Of a stretch of DNA of 45,192 nucleotides, positions 5,201 through 45,192 are shown piece after piece. The number at the start of each line of letters is the position of its first letter. Position 1 is the first letter of the stretch. The stretch comes from Magnetococcales bacterium DCbin4. GTDB taxonomy: Bacteria > Pseudomonadota > Magnetococcia > Magnetococcales > UBA8363. The notes beneath the pieces are model-generated. The model was not told the origin of the DNA. It saw only the letters and a program-made list of their open reading frames with translations, and searched no databases. The position numbers and the translations under genes are program-made. Location of the stretch: positions 1 to 45,192 of the forward strand of contig PEAN01000031.1 in assembly GCA_002753735.1 (NCBI GenBank), read 5' to 3'.

Positions 5201-8200
5201 CGATGCCGATGCCGAAGCGGAATTGACCTATGGGATCAGTGGTGGAACCATCTCTGATGGTGTTGCGGTCCGTGTGGGCAATTATGGCATTTTGAATGTC
5301 GATACGCTGACCGGTGCACTCACCTATACCCCCGACGCAAACGCAATCAACGCCCTGACCGGTCTGGCCAGTGATACGTTCACCTTGAATGTCAGCGATG
5401 GCGTGGCCTCGGGAACGACGGTGTTCACGGTCGATCTGGTGGGGACCGATGATGCACCGACCCTGGGTGGGGTGTTTTCCGGAAGTGTTGTCGAAGATGG
5501 TGCCGTAACGGCACAGGGGAGTTTGTCGATTACTGATGCCGATTCAGGGCAAGGAGCCTTTGTTGCCCAGACTGGAACTGCCGGGACCTACGGAACCTTC
5601 AATTTAACGTCCGAGGGATCGTGGACCTACCGTCTGGCCAATGATGTCGCCAATGTGCAGGCTCTGGTCTCAGGTCAACAGGTCAACGACAGTTTTGCCG
5701 TTGTCAGCGCCGATGGGACGACCCGTTCGGTCACGGTGGCCATTACGGGGGCGGCGGATGGTGCCATCATCGGGGGAACCTCTGCGGCAACCGTGACTGA
5801 AAATGGAACGACCACAGCCGCGGGAACGTTGACCGTCGCCGATGCCGATACGGGGGATGGATCCTTCATCGCCCAGACGGATCAGGCGGGGACGTACGGA
5901 ACCTTCAGCATCGATGCGACGGGATCCTGGCGTTATCTCCTTGCCGATGAAGGTGCTGCGGTTCAGGGATTGCGCGGAGGTCAGGCGGTCAATGATGTGT
6001 TTACGGTTTCGAGTACCGATGGCACGACAAAAACGGTGACGATTGACCTCATCGGAACCAATGATGGCGCGATCCTGGGTGGTGATGCTGCTGGAACGGT
6101 CATGGAGGATGGCGTAACCACGACGGGTGGACGTTTGACCATCGCCGATACCGATGCGGGCGAAGCGGCATTTGCCGCCCAGACCGACGTGGCGGGTACC
6201 TTTGGCCGGTTCAGTATCGATACGGAAGGGGCATGGCGTTACCTGCTGGATGATGGTGCAGCACAGGGTTTGATGACTGGGGAAACCAGGGCCGAAGAGT
6301 TTACGGTCTCCGGGATCGACGGGACTGCCACGAAGGTGACTGTGACGATTCAGGGGGCGGATGATGTTGCTGTGATCGGGGGAAATGCGGTGGGCGCCGT
6401 CATGGAAGATGGGGCGCTGATGACGGAGGGACGGTTGACGATTGCCGATCCTGATGCGGGACAGAATCAATTCGTCGCCCAGACTGCAACGGAAGGTCTT
6501 TTTGGGGTCTTTCACCTGAACGCCGATGGTTCATGGAATTATCATCTCGCCAATGACCTCCCCCAGGTCCAACAATTGACGGCAGGCACCCTGGTGGCCG
6601 ACATGTTTACGGTGACCAGTATTGATGGAACTTCCCAAACGGTCGCGATTGCAGCTACCGGAGCGGAAGATGGCGCGATCATCGAGGGAACGGATGTTGG
6701 TGCGGTTGGCGAGGATGGCGTGACGATGGCCGAAGGGGTCTTGACCCTCGCGGATCGGGATGGAGGACAAGCCCGGTTTATCACGCAATCGGAGATTGCT
6801 GGATCGTATGGTATCTTCAACATGGATGCCGAAGGGGTATGGAGCTATCTCCTGGCCAACGATTCCTCCGTGGTCCAGGGATTGGCGGAGCACCAGGTCG
6901 TTCAAGAAACATTTACGGTGGAAAGTATCGATGGGACGGCCCATGACGTTGTCGTGACCATCCAAGGATCGAATGATCCCACCGTATTGGGCGGAACGGT
7001 TGTGGGCGTGGTGACCGAAGATCGGGGATTGACGACGGGTGGCGTTCTGACCATCTCCGACCATGATGCAGGTGAAGCGATGTTCACTGCCCGGACCGGT
7101 GTGGCGGGAACCTATGGATTGTTTTCAGTGGATGCGACCGGCAATTGGGCCTATGCCCTGGATCACACGGCGACAGCGGTCAATGCACTTGCGGCGGGCG
7201 CTACGGCAACGGATACGTTTACGGTCGCCAGTATCCGTGGTGATCTCCTTGCGGTATCGGTCACGATCAACGGCAGCAACGACGTTGCAACCCTGGGTGG
7301 TGCGACAACCGGAACGCTGATCGAGGATGGGGCCACGACGACGGCAACCGGTACGTTGAGCATTTCCGATGTGGATCGTGGCGAATCGCGGTTCATCGCC
7401 CAAAGCAATACCGCTGGGGTTTATGGCAGCTTTGTTTTGGAAGCATCCGGGGCCTGGAGCTATCTCTTGTCCAATGCCGCGACGGTGGTGCAATCATTGG
7501 CAACGGGGCAGCAGGGGATTGATCAATTCGTGGTCACCAGTGCCGATGGCGCTACGACATTGAACGTGACCATCACGGTCAATGGTGTGGATGAACCGGT
7601 GGTCGTCCAGGAAGTGTCGACTCCAAGTGCACAAGCCGCAGCCGCGGTTGAAGCAGCACGCAACGCAACCACGCAGGCGGTTTTGGCGGCGGTTTCGTCG
7701 GCTCAGGCAACCGCCGCCGCTACGGGAACGACTGCTGCCACGACCGGTGGCAATCTCGGGGCGACGGGGCCACAGTCGGCGGGCAACAATGGTTCGTTGA
7801 TCGGTGCGCCGTTGGGTCAGGTGATTTCCACCTCGGGACCCCAAACCGGGGCGACGACATCTTCACCGCAGGCGGGCGGTCCCAATGGGGGTGGAAATGC
7901 CAATAATCCAGGGGCAACCAACAGTTTTGCGACGCGGTCCGATACGGGTCCCACCGGCGGCGGAATCGGTGTGGGCGGATCATCGGCACCCACTTCGGTT
8001 GAGCCACCGGTTCCCGTCACTTTGACGACTGGCAATCAGATTTTCTTCAGGTCTCCGACCGTTCAATTTTCCAATTCGACCCCGCCCCCGAGTCCCACGG
8101 TGACGCTGATCGAAGGGCTGGGGACGACAGTCGGGGCTGGGCAGCAGATGCAAACGGGGCAACAGACGAATATTTCGCTTCCGGGTGTTGGCGTGAATGC

Positions 8201-8684
8201 GTTCCAACCGACCACGGCGGAAGCTCCCACGTTGGGCAACACGGCACCTGGCCCGGGAACCGGGACCACCACTGAAAGCCCATTGGGGACCACCAATACC
8301 GCCCCGACGGGCGAGGCAACCCCTGACCAGCTCACTCCGACCGAGGGACAACCCCCAGCGGAAGGGCAACCCCCTGCCGAAGGGCAACCCCCTGCCGAAG
8401 GGCAACCCCCTGCCGAAGGGCAACCGCAGGCAGAGGGGGCACCGGCAGCCCCTTCGGGAACTCCAACGGCGGACAATGGTACCACCCCTGACGCCACTAC
8501 GACCCCCGATACCGCAGCAGGTGGTGAACCTCTTGCGTTCAATGCGGCAACAGGGGCGGTTGTCGGTGCCGTCATGGCTTCAGGTGGGGGCCAACGGATT
8601 TCCTGGGATAAACCGGTCAATCCCGCTTCATCCAACGCCCGGCGCATCGTTTCGCTCGGTGTACGTTCGATGCGCGTGAGGTGA
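1..8684 (+). CDS. Giant RTX-like/VCBS repeat surface or secreted protein (5' end outside window)
   Basis: The frame is open from the first base. The codons before the GTG at 9 continue a repeat unit (Q-D-T), so the start lies upstream. From residue 1 there are about five 148-residue repeats (period about 444 nt), followed by diverged copies to about residue 1550. Each carries GDNG/GDNA motifs and single RTX-like nonapeptides of the GGxGxDxUx type (GGMGADKVL, GGAGDDRID, GGYGNDSLA). A Ser/Gly linker (about 1560-1600) leads to one VCBS repeat, a cadherin-like segment and seven more VCBS repeats (about 1812-2535), each with an ..EDG..T..G.L.I.D.D.G signature. The last 350 residues are Ala/Thr/Pro-rich, include five EGQPPA-type hexapeptides, and end in a basic tail. 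Proteins of this type are normally calcium-binding adhesins exported by type I secretion. The ligand is unknown. No canonical type I secretion signal was recognised at the C-terminus. Confidence 0.9.
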   Translation, partial: DTVTVTTTSTSIRQVIGDNGQIDYNSVGGMQVMTSLDTVTTTGDNDVIVIAPTATTQDLGINFVIAGMGADKVIVAAALDPVTGALTPNAATAVDVLLGDNGTITNWVATPEVLLHYRQQVISTQLDKGGNDLIHAANGDKTIIGGFGQDTVTVTTTSASIRQVVGDNGQIDYNSVGGMLIMTSLDTVTTTGDNDVIVIAPTTTTQNLGHNDIIAGMGADKVLVAASLDPVTGAITPNAATSVDVILGDNGTITNWPSSPAVGLNHLQQVISTQLDKGGNDLIQTSNGDKTIVGGFAQDAITVTTTSTSIRHIAGDNARIEFNTVGGMMFMTSLDTVVTTGDSDVIIVAPTASAQNLGTNYIIGGMGADKVLVAASLNPVTGAITPNAATSVDVILGDNGSIENHPSSPVAPLNVLKQVLSLELDKGGVDLIQTSNGDKTLVGGYGQDTITVTTTSNSKRQVAGDNARIDFNTAGGLLYMTSLDIVTTTGDNDVIVIAPATTTQNLGYNFIIAGMGADKVLVAASLDPVTGTVTPNAATSVDVILGDNGSITNWPSSPAVAINLRKQVVSAELDKGGNDLIQTANGDKTIIGGFGLDKITVTTTSNSMRLITGDNAQIDFDTAGGMIDMVTLDTVVETGGDDVINVGPTATSAHVLGTNFIFGGMGNDEIYIAGAYKNPVTGKLVAGAASSEDVVIGDNGEAHREPLSNIMLKVFTKVNDKGGNDIIAASNGGKVILGGLANDQILALDGTHLVIGDNGELDYDLVAKNGLLRDMYATDITLGGADTITLGEGFTVVMGGIGADVVEILAQGIAAATGLHNVTGIPTTIGAPTSEKPGRTGRFIAGDNARARFDVKAGLTDFETIDAISATGGDDTITLGKPDIAAGTDLGYQVVMGGMGADTILVRQDYRSQDVLLGDNGELHRKPLGYAHVSIGSLVTNLGGSDQIRTGRGDKIILGGFSSDVVNALTIRESGRDERVIALGDSGLLSYDLGGGGTLQKVESLSNQFGGNDTVTVGDGDITFIGGYGNDSLAVDSSETAFRSAAGDNAQLTFAATAVVADQGASLLSLLTLDLTGVTGGVDNLRIGPVGGIIGNLGEVVLAAGMGSDTVRVSGDTVKTTLLGDNGQILRSTGVAGERLSVISLLPEQGAGDIIETVGGDHVVVGGAGGDTLRAGKGEGVVFGDSARITYDAGVIRSATSAGIAQGGNDIIELGAVGSIDGFQIVVGGFGADSISMQSDTGNGISAMERAVAGDNASINFDASGRLTAFATSDSDASTGGADILTVIMAGTAPVNTPLTDLNIVAGGMGGDTINIFGVTRSIDVVGGDNLDYRRTSPDASNLFGQSIFFDVLQPTTGGNDSIRIGSGVKLVAGGAGDDRIDTSTQEGDFNIVFGDAGSISFDPSGSGRLQQIGTTSVSTGGRDTVGIGAGETYLMGGMGSDTLTVSGADNVVRVVAGDNAQINFETATSSSNLGQPILVQSTGSDTVDASLVIDSLTLGSTGTNMVLGGPGVDTLSGSRGTNHFVVPGSGTIDPINRIISVVLLGQYNEMGITDTTLVYPLASSGGSSGSGGSSGGSSGSGGSSGSSGSGSSGGSSGGDSTTTGTITGEGSVAEDGTLTATGNISYPALDGGQATFVASETAGSFGSLRMQTNGSWTYTLDNASTGVQSLGAGESSSEMFMVQTADGSQTTVSITVTGANDTPQFAAVANGMLTDSDQGDGFATITRTLSTTDADAEAELTYGISGGTISDGVAVRVGNYGILNVDTLTGALTYTPDANAINALTGLASDTFTLNVSDGVASGTTVFTVDLVGTDDAPTLGGVFSGSVVEDGAVTAQGSLSITDADSGQGAFVAQTGTAGTYGTFNLTSEGSWTYRLANDVANVQALVSGQQVNDSFAVVSADGTTRSVTVAITGAADGAIIGGTSAATVTENGTTTAAGTLTVADADTGDGSFIAQTDQAGTYGTFSIDATGSWRYLLADEGAAVQGLRGGQAVNDVFTVSSTDGTTKTVTIDLIGTNDGAILGGDAAGTVMEDGVTTTGGRLTIADTDAGEAAFAAQTDVAGTFGRFSIDTEGAWRYLLDDGAAQGLMTGETRAEEFTVSGIDGTATKVTVTIQGADDVAVIGGNAVGAVMEDGALMTEGRLTIADPDAGQNQFVAQTATEGLFGVFHLNADGSWNYHLANDLPQVQQLTAGTLVADMFTVTSIDGTSQTVAIAATGAEDGAIIEGTDVGAVGEDGVTMAEGVLTLADRDGGQARFITQSEIAGSYGIFNMDAEGVWSYLLANDSSVVQGLAEHQVVQETFTVESIDGTAHDVVVTIQGSNDPTVLGGTVVGVVTEDRGLTTGGVLTISDHDAGEAMFTARTGVAGTYGLFSVDATGNWAYALDHTATAVNALAAGATATDTFTVASIRGDLLAVSVTINGSNDVATLGGATTGTLIEDGATTTATGTLSISDVDRGESRFIAQSNTAGVYGSFVLEASGAWSYLLSNAATVVQSLATGQQGIDQFVVTSADGATTLNVTITVNGVDEPVVVQEVSTPSAQAAAAVEAARNATTQAVLAAVSSAQATAAATGTTAATTGGNLGATGPQSAGNNGSLIGAPLGQVISTSGPQTGATTSSPQAGGPNGGGNANNPGATNSFATRSDTGPTGGGIGVGGSSAPTSVEPPVPVTLTTGNQIFFRSPTVQFSNSTPPPSPTVTLIEGLGTTVGAGQQMQTGQQTNISLPGVGVNAFQPTTAEAPTLGNTAPGPGTGTTTESPLGTTNTAPTGEATPDQLTPTEGQPPAEGQPPAEGQPPAEGQPPAEGQPQAEGAPAAPSGTPTADNGTTPDATTTPDTAAGGEPLAFNAATGAVVGAVMASGGGQRISWDKPVNPASSNARRIVSLGVRSMRVR
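8343..8432 (+). repeat. 18-bp coding tandem repeat, five units
   Basis: Five in-frame 18-bp units encode EGQPPA four times and then EGQPQA. The middle units are identical (GAAGGGCAACCCCCTGCC). It is a Pro-rich, probably extended spacer near the C-terminus of the giant repeat protein and a likely length-variable minisatellite. Confidence 0.9.
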
Positions 8685-9062
8685 AACGCGCCAAGGAATC
8701 TGGAGAAATAATAAGGCTCTTCTAGCGGTAGGTATAGAAGATCGGTATAATTCCTCCAAAGGTTGATTTACTGAAGGTTTGCCATGGGCATGATAGTATT
8801 TTAATATAGCTATGGTTATAGTATGCTGACAGTTCTACAAAATTCCAATATAAATATAAGGCTCTGTCATCAAAACGTGTTACCAACACGCTCTGGTTAC
8901 AGAGCCAAAGATAATTTTTTATATTTCCAGCAGTTGGGCAGAGGATGGAGTCCCCCAAGGTTTTGACTTTGGTGACTGGCAAAAGTCATCAAGAAGAATC
9001 CTGGGGCAATCCCCAATACCCCTTTTTGTTTTTTGATCGTTTCCAATAGCGAGGTAATCTGA
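8685..9062. other. Gene-free stretch: cassette left end, nested palindrome, decayed dispersed repeat
   Basis: No convincing gene. It holds the left terminal repeat of the cassette (8715-8727) and a nested palindrome at 8860-8906: GGCTCTGT and ACAGAGCC flank an inner CGTGTT/AACACG hairpin. A decayed copy of the dispersed palindromic repeat lies at 8951-9022 (CCTGGGGCAATCCCC followed by CCCCTTTTT). A GAGG ribosome-binding site at about 9051 serves the membrane-protein gene that follows. Confidence 0.7.
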
Positions 9063-10349
9063 ATGGGTACGACAGATTTATCGGAACCATCTACCATTAT
9101 AGAACGTTATGCGATTTTTCGCTTCATTTTCCGCGCAGGGGAATTTTCTCCTTTCAGGCAGATATACGCCTTAGCATGGCGTATATTGTCAATAATGGCG
9201 GCACAAATACCATTTAGATATTCCAATGAGATTACGAAAGATTTCATATGGGGCAATGTGAGATATGCATTCATTGCAACATTTATTATTTGTTTCGGCG
9301 GTTCAGAAATTATAGCCTTTTTAAACAGCTCGCTCCACTCATTCAATCGTGGGGAAATATCTTTCGCTTATGATACTGTGAATATTATAAACTATGCTAT
9401 TATTTGTCCGCTTTATGTTAGTTTTGGGTTGTCACTTTGGCTCTCAATATCTCATATTTACAATTCAAATGCGATTCAGAATATTGCTAACCACTTCGGT
9501 GTTGGTCTATTGAACCATGATACAGAATTTTCAGGCATGAGAAGTCGTGATTATTTTTATTATCTATTGTAATTTATGTATTAGGCACTATGAATTTTGT
9601 TGATACAATGCTTGATGCGCAAAGTACAGAATTTCTATTTTGGTCAGTTGATATTCGATGCGAAAAAGGATTGCGTGGTTATGGTGGCTTAGGAACCTTC
9701 TATATTATCATGAATTTCGTTCTTTTGTTATTTACGATATTTTCAGTTGCAGCTTATTTAGAGCTATTTTCTTTATCTGTGAGGATAGGACGATTGATTG
9801 ATCGGGCCAGTATGTCAGCTCCTTTAGATAGTGATAAAGTTAGAGAAATCTTGTGGGGTTTTTCTCACGCCTATCTTTCTGCAAAAATTTGCGTATTGGC
9901 CTATTTTGGAAACATTATTACTTGGCATCTATCAAGCCCGTCTGGCCTTGCCCTATCAACAATGGCTGTGTCAATCATAGTGTTATCAGTGTTTTTTTTC
10001 TTTATCCTTCCGTTGCCTTGTTACCTGATAAACCATAAATTACTTAAATTTCACCAAGTTAAATATCAATACAGCAGTGAGCATTACATAGAATGCGATA
10101 GAGTAGCCTATTTTGACTTCCGCAGTATGGATACACAAGTTATTTCAAAATACGTTAATTACTTTGTGATGTTTGGTATGGCCTATTTGCCATTTTCAAA
10201 GGCTCTTCAAGCGTTATATGTGGGGTAAACACATTGTTTTACTGCGATATTCTAGTTTAGATAAGGAAATCCGCGATGATGCCCACAATATGTGTCCATT
10301 TATTTTGCTATGGTTTTTCAATCCAACCACATTAGACGCTAGAAGAGCC
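8715..10349. mobile_element. Transposase-less mobile cassette with 13-bp terminal inverted repeats
   Basis: The left end GGCTCTTCTAGCG (8715-8727) has its exact reverse complement at 10337-10349. The bases just outside are AATAA on both sides (8710-8714 and 10350-10354). Extended to 8 bp they read AATAATAA and AATAAGAA, one mismatch. The GGCTCTT end and an 8-bp duplication would fit ISL3-family transposition, from memory of that family. The interior is AT-rich and carries one frameshifted membrane-protein gene and no transposase, so it resembles a mobile insertion cassette moved in trans. A near copy of the end (GGCTCTTCAAGCG, one mismatch) occurs at 10201-10213. Confidence 0.7.
9063..10228 (+). 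pseudogene. Six-TM membrane protein, split by a frameshift
   Basis: Two adjacent reading frames (9063-9572 and 9590-10228) join into one protein if the frame shifts by -1 in the T/A-rich run at 9551-9565. The downstream frame then reads LFLLSIVIYVLGTMNFVD, completing a membrane helix that the upstream frame cuts short. The joined product would be about 385 residues with helices around YAFIATFIICF, INYAIICPLYVSFGLSLW, LFLLSIVIYVL, FYIIMNFVLLLFTIF, and two near ICVLAYFGNIITW and VSIIVLSVFFFFILPL. The start has a GAGG about 8 nt upstream. The motif T TTT TAT is not a good canonical -1 slippery site, so an indel (real or from sequencing) is likelier. It is the only gene in the cassette and is much more AT-rich than the flanks. 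The family was not recognised. Confidence 0.55.
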
Positions 10350-10360
10350 AATAAGAAAAT

Positions 10361-11650
10361 ATGCTAACTTCCATGCAACTGAAAAATTTCAAGGCCTGGG
10401 GAGAGACGGGCTTCGTGGCATTAAAGCCGGTGACCATGCTGTTGGGTACCAATTCATCGGGAAAATCGTCGCTTATCCAGAGTCTGTTGCTTCTCAAGCA
10501 GACAGTACAGTCACCTGACCGGACCATTCATCTGAATCTGGGAGGGGATGAGGTCAATGATCTCTTTGATTTCGGTAGTTTCTTTACTGTCCTGAAAAAA
10601 GGGTCCAAGAAGAACCAGTTTGAACTGGCTTTTTCTTTTCAGCGTGGTGATGGCAAGGGGCGAGTCAGCGAAGGGTCTTTTCGCGGATGCTACGGGACCG
10701 ATTCCAGAAAAGCGGTCGTCGTCCTGGAGATGGCGCTTGCTTCCGATCAACGTCTTTTTACCCTGAAACGCAGTCAAAGAGATGCATACTCCATCCATGT
10801 TGATGATCAAAAACCACTGAAAAAAGGGCGCGACTTTGCTCCGGAACGCTCGATTGCGTTTCCTGCCAGTGCGATTGCAGAATTGGACAGCGATGACGGC
10901 GCTTTGATCTCTGATCTGAGTTTGATCATCCGCCGAGAACTGGAACAAATCATTTATCTTGGTCCTTTGCGGCGCAAACCTGAACGGGATTATGTCTGGA
11001 ACCGGTCAAAACCAGGTGAGGTTGGCAGTGACGGTCACAAAAGTATCGATGTATTGCTTTCCAGTGCTTTGATTAAGAATGAAGAGCATCTTGCGGTCAT
11101 CGAGGGCGTTTCCAAGTGGCTTTCCAGGATGAACGTCGCTGAAAAGCTGGAAGTACGCCAAATAGGCCGGTCCAGTCGATACGAGGTGGTGGTCCATCGC
11201 AATGGGATGGTCGCCAATTTGCGTGATATCGGTATCGGTGTCTCCCAGGTTTTACCCGTGTTGATCATTGCCTATTTTGCACCACCAGGCAGTACGGTCA
11301 TTCTGGAGGAGCCAGAAATCCATTTGCATCCACTGGCCCAATCGGTATTGGCTGAACTATTTGTCGAGGTCAGCAAGACACGAAAGGTCCAATTCTTGGT
11401 GGAAACCCATTCAGAGCATCTTTTTCGTCGCATGCAAACATTGATTGCCCAAAGAAATACAACCGTCGATACCTGTGCTTTGTATTTCGTTGAATATCAG
11501 GATGAAAATTCAAAATTACGTAGTCTGGACATCGATGAGTTTGGTACAGTGAGAAACTGGCCCGATCATTTTTTTGGCGATACGGTCGGCGAAGTTCGGG
11601 CACAGGCGATGGAACGGGCCAAACGGATGAAGTTTAAATCCAATGGTTGA
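10361..11650 (+). CDS. AAA/ABC-like ATPase with DUF3696-type C-terminus
   Basis: The 429-residue protein has an N-terminal LKNFKAWG strand, Walker A GTNSSGKSS (29-37), an ABC-signature-like GIGVSQVLPV (291-300), Walker B VILEEPEIHLHP (313-324) and a switch histidine in ETHSEH (348-353). The C-terminus (about 376-428, with WPDHFFGD) looks like DUF3696. This is the RecF/OLD/PtuA-like class of ATPases found in many defence systems, where it senses or drives a partner nuclease. It starts 11 nt after the right end of the mobile cassette and overlaps the next gene by 8 nt, so the three genes from 10361 to 12915 are very likely translated together. A missing Toprim domain separates it from full OLD nucleases. 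The role is inferred from context. Confidence 0.85.
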   Translation: MLTSMQLKNFKAWGETGFVALKPVTMLLGTNSSGKSSLIQSLLLLKQTVQSPDRTIHLNLGGDEVNDLFDFGSFFTVLKKGSKKNQFELAFSFQRGDGKGRVSEGSFRGCYGTDSRKAVVVLEMALASDQRLFTLKRSQRDAYSIHVDDQKPLKKGRDFAPERSIAFPASAIAELDSDDGALISDLSLIIRRELEQIIYLGPLRRKPERDYVWNRSKPGEVGSDGHKSIDVLLSSALIKNEEHLAVIEGVSKWLSRMNVAEKLEVRQIGRSSRYEVVVHRNGMVANLRDIGIGVSQVLPVLIIAYFAPPGSTVILEEPEIHLHPLAQSVLAELFVEVSKTRKVQFLVETHSEHLFRRMQTLIAQRNTTVDTCALYFVEYQDENSKLRSLDIDEFGTVRNWPDHFFGDTVGEVRAQAMERAKRMKFKSNG

Positions 11651-12185
11651 ATCGAGAGTTGTCGATACTAATGTCTTGATCGTTGCCAGTGCTGCGGACG
11701 ATGGCTCTCCCTTTCGTCCTGACGCGACTCCAGTGGAAGAAGCCCAACTGAGAGAGATCGTGTTAAAATGGTTTCAAAATTTTGAAAGGGATGCCAAACG
11801 CTATATCGTTTTAGATCATCATTGGTTGATTCTCACCGAATATGGGAACAAACTAAATGTGGACCAGGATTATGCTTATCTGGCGATGATGGCAAAACAG
11901 GATCGAGGGGAGGTACTCTGGGTCGGATTTGAGGTCGATCCCCATGGCCATGCTGTGTTACCGGTTCATCTTGCCAATAGTGTCACTGATCGGGCTGATC
12001 GCAAGATGGTTGCAGCAGCCTTGAGTGCTTTGAACTCAGGTAATGCATGCAAGTTAACCAATGCATGTGATTCAGACTGGTTAGATTGTACCCAGGTATT
12101 GAAGGACTATGGTGTAGAAGTAGAACAATTATTGGAAGAATGGTTGCTCCAACAAAAATTAAAGAAAAATAAGAACTGTGAGTGA
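11643..12185 (+). CDS. PIN-like nuclease domain protein
   Basis: This 180-residue protein begins VESRVVDTNVLIVASA, with the PIN hallmark Asp (D8) and Thr/Asn. Further acidic candidates are E66 in LTEYGN, D116/D119 in VTDRADRKMVAAALS, and D143/D145 in ACDSDWLDC, spaced as in PIN-fold metal-dependent ribonucleases. It overlaps the ATPase gene by 8 nt upstream and the RNA ligase gene by 8 nt downstream. Known PIN proteins often cut tRNA, rRNA or mRNA. A nuclease activity controlled by the ATPase and repaired by the ligase is inferred. The family match is by motif only and somewhat divergent, and no VapB-like antitoxin is adjacent. Confidence 0.7.
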   Translation: MVESRVVDTNVLIVASAADDGSPFRPDATPVEEAQLREIVLKWFQNFERDAKRYIVLDHHWLILTEYGNKLNVDQDYAYLAMMAKQDRGEVLWVGFEVDPHGHAVLPVHLANSVTDRADRKMVAAALSALNSGNACKLTNACDSDWLDCTQVLKDYGVEVEQLLEEWLLQQKLKKNKNCE

Positions 12186-12915
12186 TTTTTTTCGTTTTCC
12201 TCATACACCTCATCTTGCTTGGTTGGGAAAAGGACAACCCAGAGATGACAAGTTAATACCGCCTGATGAAGCGTTGCAATTTCTGTCAGATGAAGTCGTG
12301 ATCGAAGAAAAACTCGATGGTGCCAATTTGGGAATATCCCTGACGGAAGATGGCAAAGTGCAAATTCAGAATCGTGGACACTATCTTGTTCCACCATTCA
12401 AGGGACAATTTTCTCGCCTCAATACATGGGTTACACCTTACCAATTCCACCTGATGGATTCCCTGGAGCGTCATCTCATCGTTTTCGGAGAATGGTGCAG
12501 TGCCAAGCATTCGCTGGATTATGACGCTTTACCAGACTGGTTTATCGTGTTTGATGTGTATGATAGAAAGCGTAGCAGTTTTTGGAATACTTCCAGGCGT
12601 AATGAGTTGGCAAACATGTTCGGGTTTGCCACCGTTAACCAGATCTCCAAAGGCCGGACGACGATGGAAAAACTTAGAGCACTATTAGACTCACAACCAA
12701 GTGCTTATCGTCAGGGACTTATGGAAGGAATCATCATTCGCAGGGAATCCTCTGAATGGTGTAAAGGCAGAGCAAAATTTGTCCGATCCGATTTTACTCA
12801 GAACATCAATGAACATTGGCAGCGGAACCGTATTGAATGGAATAGAACGTTGATTTGTTCATCATTATCCAATCAAGATCCAGCTTTTTCCACAACCACC
12901 CCCTCAGGAGAATAA
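12178..12915 (+). CDS. RNA ligase family protein (covalent nucleotidyltransferase)
   Basis: The GTG start at 12178 overlaps the end of the PIN gene by 8 nt. The 245-residue product shows the ordered motifs of ATP-dependent RNA ligases: motif I EEKLDGAN with catalytic Lys45, a downstream NRG, motif III VFGEWC (102-107), IIIa FDVYD (125-129), motif IV EGIIIR (183-188) and motif V KGRAKFVR (196-203). Such enzymes adenylate themselves, transfer AMP to a 5'-phosphate and seal RNA nicks. The length suits a minimal Rnl2-like nucleotidyltransferase core with little C-terminal domain. Next to a PIN nuclease it could reseal RNA cut by phage, by a host nuclease or by its partner. The substrate is unknown. 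Confidence 0.85.
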   Translation: MSDFFRFPHTPHLAWLGKGQPRDDKLIPPDEALQFLSDEVVIEEKLDGANLGISLTEDGKVQIQNRGHYLVPPFKGQFSRLNTWVTPYQFHLMDSLERHLIVFGEWCSAKHSLDYDALPDWFIVFDVYDRKRSSFWNTSRRNELANMFGFATVNQISKGRTTMEKLRALLDSQPSAYRQGLMEGIIIRRESSEWCKGRAKFVRSDFTQNINEHWQRNRIEWNRTLICSSLSNQDPAFSTTTPSGE

Positions 12916-12919
12916 CTCG

Positions 12920-43770: not shown

Positions 43771-45039
43771 TCAGGCAAAAAGGCTGTAGGGGGCAGCGAG
43801 GCGAAAGCCCAGATTGACGCAGCGGCTGCCCGCACCGCCGCCGCCGCGGTCGTCGGCCCGGAGGCTGGAAGCCGGGCCGACCCAGGACCCGCCCCTGACA
43901 GAACACCAACCCCGTTCTCCTACAGTTACAAGGGGATCCTTGACCAAAAGTGAGGCACGTTTTTTATAAGCATCCGCATCCCAAACGTCCCGACACCATT
44001 CCCAGATGTTTCCAGCCAGATCGAGATGCCCAAATGGACCCCGTCCCGCAGGGTATTGGCCGACAAGTGCTGGTTTGCCCGTTTCCCAATCCAACCCAAA
44101 ACAGGCATGCCTCGGAGTCGGATCATCGTTGCCCCAGGGGAACCGACGCCCATCCATTCCACGCGCGGCATATTCCCACTGCGCCTCGGTGGGCAGAAAA
44201 AACTTCTTGCCTGACGATTTTTGCGAAAGCCATGTGCAAAACTTATTGGCATCGTTCCAATCCACCCCAACGACCGGTTGTTGGTCATTCGAGAATCGTT
44301 CATCCATCGAATATTCTGGCTTTTGGTAGTTTGGATTTGCCTCAAGGAAAAGGCGATATTGCTGGTTGGTTACCGGGGTTTCCGCAAGATGGAATGGGGA
44401 CAGTTCCACATGATGGGCAGGCTTTTCATCCTTGAATTCACCCTGATCATTGCCCATGGTAAAAACACCCCCCGGCACCGGCAGCATTCGCAGCCCTGGC
44501 AGCAGGTCAGTGATGGGGGGGCTGGGTGGGTCGTCTGGTGGGCGCTGTGTGGACAATTCTCGAATACGCTTGGCCAAATCCCGGAAAATACCCTTCTGTT
44601 CCAGGGATGTCCGATGTTCCAAGGTGTGGTCTGGAGTGGCATACCCCTGAAAACTGGCCAGATCGATGATCTTTTTCTCTTGGGTATCCGGATCCTGGAA
44701 TGGAATCTTGGCGGCATCTTCATCGAAGGGACTGACAAAAACCGGAAGGATCGTCAATCCCCGCTGCAAATGCGCGTGCAATAATGGTGGCAATTCTTCG
44801 TTATAAATGAATTCTGACGCGAGAAATGTTTGTGAAATGAATAAAATTGCCGTATTGGCTTCATTCAGAGCCTTTTTGATTTCTTTCCGCCATTGTTGTC
44901 CCGTTTGAATCTCCCTGTCGGTCCAGACAACCACCAAGCCATCCCGTTCCAAGGTATTCTTGAACGGAAAAAACGACTCCAACAAAGGATTGTCTTTACG
45001 GCTGTAGCTGATAAAAACTTTCGACTTTGAACGCTCCAT
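43771..45039 (-). CDS. TIR/FGE-fold receptor with DGR-type variable tip
   Basis: The ATG at 45039 has GGGGTGGG just upstream; a TTG four codons earlier is the alternative. The 422-residue protein starts with a TIR domain (about 5-140): KVFISYSRKD, VVWTDREIQTGQQW, and LASEFIYNEEL with candidate catalytic Glu81/82, as in NAD-cleaving bacterial TIRs. A short Pro-rich linker (RPPDDPPSPP) leads to an FGE/SUMF1 C-type-lectin fold (about 183-422): PGGVFTMGNDQGE, LAETPVTNQQYRLFLEANP, PVVGVDWNDANKFCTWL, LPTEAQWEYAARG, LDLAGNIWEW, VRGGSW, LGFRLAA. Catalytic FGE cysteines are missing at the expected place, so it is probably a binding module. TIR would be the effector, the lectin-like tip the sensor. The stop faces the NACHT-FGE stop 211 bp away. 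Confidence 0.9.
   Translation of the reverse strand: MERSKSKVFISYSRKDNPLLESFFPFKNTLERDGLVVVWTDREIQTGQQWRKEIKKALNEANTAILFISQTFLASEFIYNEELPPLLHAHLQRGLTILPVFVSPFDEDAAKIPFQDPDTQEKKIIDLASFQGYATPDHTLEHRTSLEQKGIFRDLAKRIRELSTQRPPDDPPSPPITDLLPGLRMLPVPGGVFTMGNDQGEFKDEKPAHHVELSPFHLAETPVTNQQYRLFLEANPNYQKPEYSMDERFSNDQQPVVGVDWNDANKFCTWLSQKSSGKKFFLPTEAQWEYAARGMDGRRFPWGNDDPTPRHACFGLDWETGKPALVGQYPAGRGPFGHLDLAGNIWEWCRDVWDADAYKKRASLLVKDPLVTVGERGWCSVRGGSWVGPASSLRADDRGGGGAGSRCVNLGFRLAAPYSLFA
43774..43899 (-). other. Predicted DGR variable region 2
   Basis: Codons 1-42 before the stop of the TIR-FGE gene. It pairs with variable region 1 codon for codon, beginning GTC AGG GGC GGG TCC TGG in both. The amino acids at variable sites differ strongly (for example D/V, D/G, D/A, F/S, Y/S, H/D, L/G, V/G, E/C, V/N), while the scaffold residues VRGGSW, LRAD and LGFRLAAP are constant. 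Upstream of the GTC codon the two genes' DNA is clearly divergent although the fold is the same. Confidence 0.8.
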
Positions 45040-45192
45040 GGCCCACCCCAATCGGTCAATGAATACACTTCAGGCTGGAGCATAGATGATAACAAGATTG
45101 GAATCATGGGACGCCATATGGATCTCCCGAGATTTCCGGTAGTGCGTCACCGACATTCCCCCGGCATTTCAACCGATGGTCGTGCGGCTGGG
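45040..45192. other. Region upstream of the TIR-FGE gene to the window edge
   Basis: No gene is visible. It should contain the promoter of the minus-strand TIR-FGE gene. No clear motif was chosen. Confidence 0.3.

Follow-up and report, generated by a model that had tools for sequence, protein, structure and literature searches.

An RNA ligase gene as a conserved and exchangeable third member of HEC-03-like ATPase-PIN cassettes, candidate phage-defence modules with a putative repair enzyme

The nucleases of ATPase-linked defence systems are thought to be restrained by protein contacts, and PrrC and PARIS respond to attack on restriction. RNA ligases that take part in phage-host conflict are best known as weapons of the phage. 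The described candidate that lies closest to the locus reported here is HEC-03, which reportedly stems from a 2024 preprint by Payne et al. (doi 10.1101/2024.01.29.577857) and, like our locus, consists of adjacent genes for an ATPase (HEC-03B) and a PIN-like protein (HEC-03A) whose relatives are embedded in other defence systems. HEC stands for Hma-embedded candidate, and the preprint, which is cited in PMC12988326, reportedly deals with 'guilt-by-embedding'. The locus that we describe differs from HEC-03 by adding an RNA ligase, for which there is no PADLOC model. An initial annotation had proposed the three genes as a possibly undescribed trio, which fails for the ATPase-PIN pair (HEC-03B at 1.9e-90 and HEC-03A at 1.3e-10) and stands for the ligase as third gene. 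Thus the ATPase-PIN pair is already known as a candidate, and the ligase as its conserved, exchangeable third gene is new here; the literature searched, which did not extend to key surveys where an earlier mention is possible, holds no link between DUF3696, PIN and RNA ligase.

The trio lies in a stretch of 45,192 nucleotides of Magnetococcales bacterium DCbin4 (contig PEAN01000031.1), which was analysed as a whole and is called the window below. Its relevant features are the following.

10361-11650, plus strand: ATPase gene, 429 aa; ABC-type (AAA_15/AAA_21/DUF3696), HEC-03B-like; proposed sensor and licensor
11643-12185, plus strand: PIN-like gene, 180 aa; HEC-03A-like; proposed RNase effector (D8, N10, E66, D116, D119, D143)
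12178-12915, plus strand: RNA ligase gene, 245 aa, GTG start; minimal, ATP-dependent, PF09414, motifs I-V present
11643..11650, plus strand: ATPase-PIN stop/start overlap, 8 nt, ATGGTTGA
12178..12185, plus strand: PIN-ligase stop/start overlap, 8 nt, GTGAGTGA
8685..12919, no strand: accessory AT-rich stretch between a giant repeat-protein gene and a DUF3467 gene

Coordinates and sequence confirm that adjacent reading frames of the trio share exactly 8 nt at each of the two junctions, and the GTG start of the ligase is backed by relatives that start at the same residue. From these overlaps the initial annotation had concluded that translation is both coupled and stoichiometric; as a reading of the sequence they do imply coupling, and a fixed stoichiometry does not follow from them. 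The exact 8-nt length was also considered as a special signature and rejected, since among 58 trios an overlap of 4 nt is commonest (31 and 21 cases, with 8 nt in 9 and 5). The ATPase, PIN and ligase genes have GC contents of 0.484, 0.444 and 0.439, compared with 0.544 in the remainder of the window and 0.57-0.59 in the pair of large flanking genes, so that the AT-richness noted at the outset holds, and seven related loci are likewise AT-richer than their own flanks. The same inserted stretch carries, upstream of the trio, two very AT-rich open reading frames on the plus strand (9063-9572 and 9590-10228; 36% GC) that have no Pfam or PADLOC match. The DUF3467 gene (12920) was rejected as a fourth member of the cassette, because genomes G003 and G004 have it as a resident gene where the site is empty. 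Elsewhere in the window, 43771-45051 on the minus strand encodes a probable TIR domain protein (KVFISYSRKDN near its start), possibly another defence or signalling gene.

The domain calls made at first sight, a DUF3696-type ATPase, a PIN-like nuclease and a minimal RNA ligase, are borne out, with the PIN call weak by sequence profile. The first protein matches AAA_15 (9e-23), AAA_21 (3e-19) and DUF3696 (4e-9), carries a Walker A motif (GTNSSGKSS at 29), GIGVSQ at 291, a Walker B motif (ILEEPE) and H350, and by its sequence is an ABC/OLD-like ATPase that ends in a DUF3696 tail. Among PADLOC models HEC-03B fits it best, and the AriA profile of PARIS also matches it (5.5e-26). The second protein matches HEC-03A alone in PADLOC, where relatives reach 1e-27 to 3e-33 and neither AriB nor Toprim is matched. 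The window protein itself has no Pfam match, PIN_3 is matched weakly by 16 of 49 relatives (best 0.007), a PDB sequence search returned nothing useful, and hhalign against PIN proteins of its own genome aligned the first motif (DTN) alone at a probability of 32%. Nevertheless, D8, N10, E66, D116 and D119 are invariant, D143 is at least 90% conserved, and the acidic sites fit the PIN pattern: D8 after strand 1, E66 in the helix after strand 2, D116 and D119 before the helix after strand 3, and D143 after strand 4. The AF2 model (pLDDT 96) has a PIN-type topology, and its best Foldseek neighbours in BFVD are viral PIN (probability 0.99) and DUF1308 (0.97) proteins at E about 0.01, with weak matches in the PDB. 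Residue pattern, predicted topology and structural neighbours together make a PIN protein the likely identity, sequence profiles being weak.

The third protein, a nucleotidyltransferase domain standing alone (about 230 residues), matches RNA_ligase PF09414 (2.7e-34), and its fold matches T4 Rnl2, Naegleria Rnl and archaeal Rnl (probability 1.00 for T4 Rnl2 and others); it has no PADLOC-DB 2.0.0 model match at E<=1. Motifs I, Ia, III, IIIa, IV and V are all present, and the motif residues K45, D47, G48, R66, E105, D126, E183 and K200 do not vary among 50 relatives, so the motifs are intact as had been claimed. Ligases from trios form one clade (100/100) against four cousin ligases, which in other loci are paired with an HD + AAA_33 (kinase-like) protein. 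This partner is, by its domains, probably an end-healing kinase/phosphoesterase, and the trio encodes no end-healing enzyme.

A scan of 84,980 GTDB species genomes found at least 560 relatives of the ligase, of which the 80 best were examined; among these 80 loci, six trios with over-long reading frames and, in addition, one pair were assigned by hand. Among the best 80 are 64 full ATPase-PIN-ligase trios in the same order, 7 PIN-ligase pairs with room upstream and no ATPase (L063, L065, L083, L092, L094, L100 and L106), 3 PIN-ligase loci cut by a contig end, 4 ligases without a PIN gene and 2 cut loci. The trio thus recurs, and the ligase gene lies directly after the PIN gene in 74 of the 78 scorable loci, mostly within a few nucleotides. 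Hosts are mostly Pseudomonadota, with others in Verrucomicrobiota, Thermodesulfobacteriota and one contig binned as Chloroflexota; a relative is also found on a Rhodococcus plasmid. A DNA search of complete E. coli genomes with the Lelliottia trio gave no relatives. Three full trios (L118, L120 and L121) are on contigs filed as viral in IMG/VR.

Co-occurrence was counted in an even draw of 398 genomes from the phylum, of which 14 have HEC-03A and 10 a close ligase. Far from being rarely found together, all 10 close ligases adjoin HEC-03A (10/10, with 0.35 expected; P 4e-17, kinship ignored). The converse does not hold, as 4 of the 14 HEC-03A loci have no ligase within 1.5 kb (10/14 with one), and the ligase is therefore not an obligatory antidote. 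In 392 genomes from the order of G111, the 10 close ligases comprise 8 trios, 1 PIN-ligase pair and 1 ligase without PIN, the last in a type I-like locus. A further match in this set, in G049, is a C-terminal ligase fragment that is probably a relic. At L248 (G753; 6736-8384, minus strand) a close ligase follows a 304-aa protein instead of a PIN protein in a type I restriction-like locus.

Identities across 72 trios correlate at r 0.87 between PIN and ATPase, at 0.29 between ligase and PIN and at 0.28 between ligase and ATPase; common ancestry of the loci inflates r, so that the contrast between these values weighs more than the values themselves. Near-identical ligases are found beside unlike cassettes. 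For example, L077 and L115 have their far-upstream DNA, ligase and downstream DNA in common and not their ATPase-PIN genes, and L064 and L076 have in common the ATPase (91% at the DNA level), the ligase and the downstream region (85%) while their PIN genes are unlike. The ATPase and PIN genes co-diverge, and the ligase moves by exchange among ATPase-PIN types that are unlike one another. An enzyme that is freely exchanged need not touch the PIN protein.

Homologues of the trio occur in defence islands, many of them within or next to loci of the BREX, type I restriction, methylase-helicase and Argonaute kinds. For example, L025 has BREX type I genes on both sides (PglX, BrxHI, PglZ, BrxA and BrxC) and L026 has BREX genes upstream. 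About 10 loci adjoin an upstream DrmMI/type IIG-like methylase and many are followed by an HNH gene family, these defence-neighbour tallies being raw counts without a background rate. Argonaute, type I methylase and helicase genes are also among the neighbours, some trios are flanked by a DUF1156 methylase and an SNF2 helicase, and others sit in type I restriction-like loci. Additionally, trios occur on conjugative and mobilizable plasmids, and on Aeromonas plasmids they lie near AbiEii and GASH-associated genes. Near the window copy itself no further known defence genes occur. A role of the trio in defence, as judged from genomic context, is well supported. RtcR-like regulators upstream of three loci were set aside, as their N-terminal sequence looks NorR-type.

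The suggestion that the trio was acquired horizontally is supported by its AT-richness and by a site that is occupied, decayed or empty within one genus. Between the giant gene and the DUF3467 gene, congeneric G004 has an empty interval (about 62 bp) and G003 a similar one; in G005 a trio lies there, and in G006 a relic with ATPase fragments 69% and PIN fragments 51% identical. Neither of the proteins encoded by the two AT-rich reading frames upstream of the trio turned up at the G003-G006 sites. The window trio is 69/62/60% identical to that of a genome of another family and 60/59/57% to the same-site trio of its own genus, in which the neighbouring HlyD-like protein is 73% identical. This pattern of identities fits either replacement of the trio or independent gain at the site. 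Judged from the DNA, L023 in G005 has a probable BrnT/BrnA toxin-antitoxin pair between the giant gene and the trio (about 10060-10830), and its presence at the same site suggests an insertion hotspot.

We give an even chance to the reading that the trio is a phage-defence module of the HEC-03 kind, ATPase plus nuclease, equipped with a repair enzyme of its own. In this reading the ABC-type ATPase would sense infection or the disabling of an adjoining restriction or BREX-type system and license the PIN protein, which would then cut an essential RNA, most likely tRNA, giving 5'-phosphate and 3'-OH ends. The ligase could seal such ends directly, with no end-healing partner, so that leaky or brief activation would be reversed in an uninfected cell and full activation would overwhelm repair. 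We infer the trigger, RNA target, end chemistry and resealing role of the ligase, and that the trigger is an attack on restriction is a guess by analogy with PrrC and PARIS, prompted by the embedding of the trio in BREX and restriction loci. Cleavage by PIN RNases such as VapC depends on metal and yields 5'-phosphate and 3'-OH ends. In contrast, the RNases of conflict systems mostly work without metal and produce cyclic phosphates that need cleaning before ligation (PMC9503650). From this difference, the cutting and the sealing enzyme of the trio seem to be chemically matched.

A broader proposal is that a built-in RNA ligase acts as an exchangeable enzymatic antidote in widespread defence cassettes, recognising the break and not the nuclease, with PIN effectors (possibly also PD-T4-4 and PDC-S46) swapping freely around a constant repair enzyme. 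We advance it tentatively, as somewhat short of an even prospect. Ligases of the trio clade directly follow the PD-T4-4 A/B genes at L046 (5975-8741) and a PDC-S46 AAA_13 gene at L093 (1453-4422), each a single case; PD-T4-4 was found through selection for phage defence (PMC9519451).

The alternative that survives best, which we nevertheless consider unlikely, is an RNA-repair module in which trimming by the PIN protein prepares damaged RNA ends for sealing by the ligase, so that the damage of other nucleases of phage or host is undone, with the ATPase recruiting or regulating. Ligases of the same fold repair tRNA in phages (PMC7824862), and of the seven PIN-ligase pairs without an ATPase four (L083, L092, L100 and L106) form one clade, as a domesticated repair pair would; at least three of these have a common chromosomal core-gene neighbourhood, and the clade is possibly domesticated. 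However, the ATPase co-diverges with the PIN protein and not with the ligase, ATPase-PIN pairs occur without a ligase, and the swapping of PIN genes within an otherwise unchanged frame resembles diversification of an effector. Slightly less probable is a ligase that travels in the same islands as an independent defence passenger, performing generic RNA repair with no functional link to HEC-03. Its weak co-divergence with PIN and ATPase would fit such a passenger, as would its place behind genes of PD-T4-4 and PDC-S46 and, with no PIN gene, in a type I-like locus, but not its position directly behind the PIN gene in 74 of 78 loci. That the PIN protein is a structure-specific DNA nuclease, with the ligase sealing DNA or RNA/DNA nicks, is a slim prospect: the fold is common to 5'-3' DNA exonucleases, which are present among the weak Foldseek matches, yet the fold and profile matches of the ligase are mostly to RNA ligases. 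Slimmest of all is a cut-and-rejoin effector in which the PIN protein takes out nucleotides or makes two cuts and the ligase then joins the ends into a stable but incorrect RNA as part of the attack, for although RloC is known to excise a wobble nucleotide (PMC2610378) and exchange of the ligase has kept the apparent coupling, ATPase-PIN pairs without a ligase exist.

If the phage-defence reading with a built-in repair enzyme is correct, a host cassette that encodes both cutter and sealer would provide self-immunity by repair, and reversible antiviral dormancy would become directly testable. The predicted match in end chemistry, PIN ends suiting the trio ligase and cousin ligases carrying a probable end-healer, offers a sharp biochemical test.

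Among known systems, PARIS (AriA/AriB), Septu (PtuA/PtuB) and Gabija (GajA), like the trio, join an ABC-type ATPase to a separate or fused nuclease; their effectors are Toprim or HNH, whereas that of the trio is PIN-like, and we know of no ligase gene that belongs to any of them. The anticodon nucleases PrrC and RloC, together with repair by T4 Pnkp and Rnl1, resemble the trio in having an ATPase-linked RNase beside restriction systems and in combining RNA breakage with ligation, but there the nuclease is HEPN-type, the cyclic-phosphate ends need healing and the ligase is the phage's. Bacterial RNA repair by Pnkp-Rnl-Hen1 (PMC4411300) and the ligase + HD/AAA_33 operons also involve an ATP-dependent RNA ligase, with partners that heal or mark ends, while the partner in the trio is of nuclease type and no healing enzyme is present. 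Finally, the toxin-antitoxin system VapBC is also a small coupled operon with a PIN RNase effector; in the trio, however, no VapB-like antitoxin lies beside the PIN gene, which is instead preceded by an ATPase and followed by a ligase.
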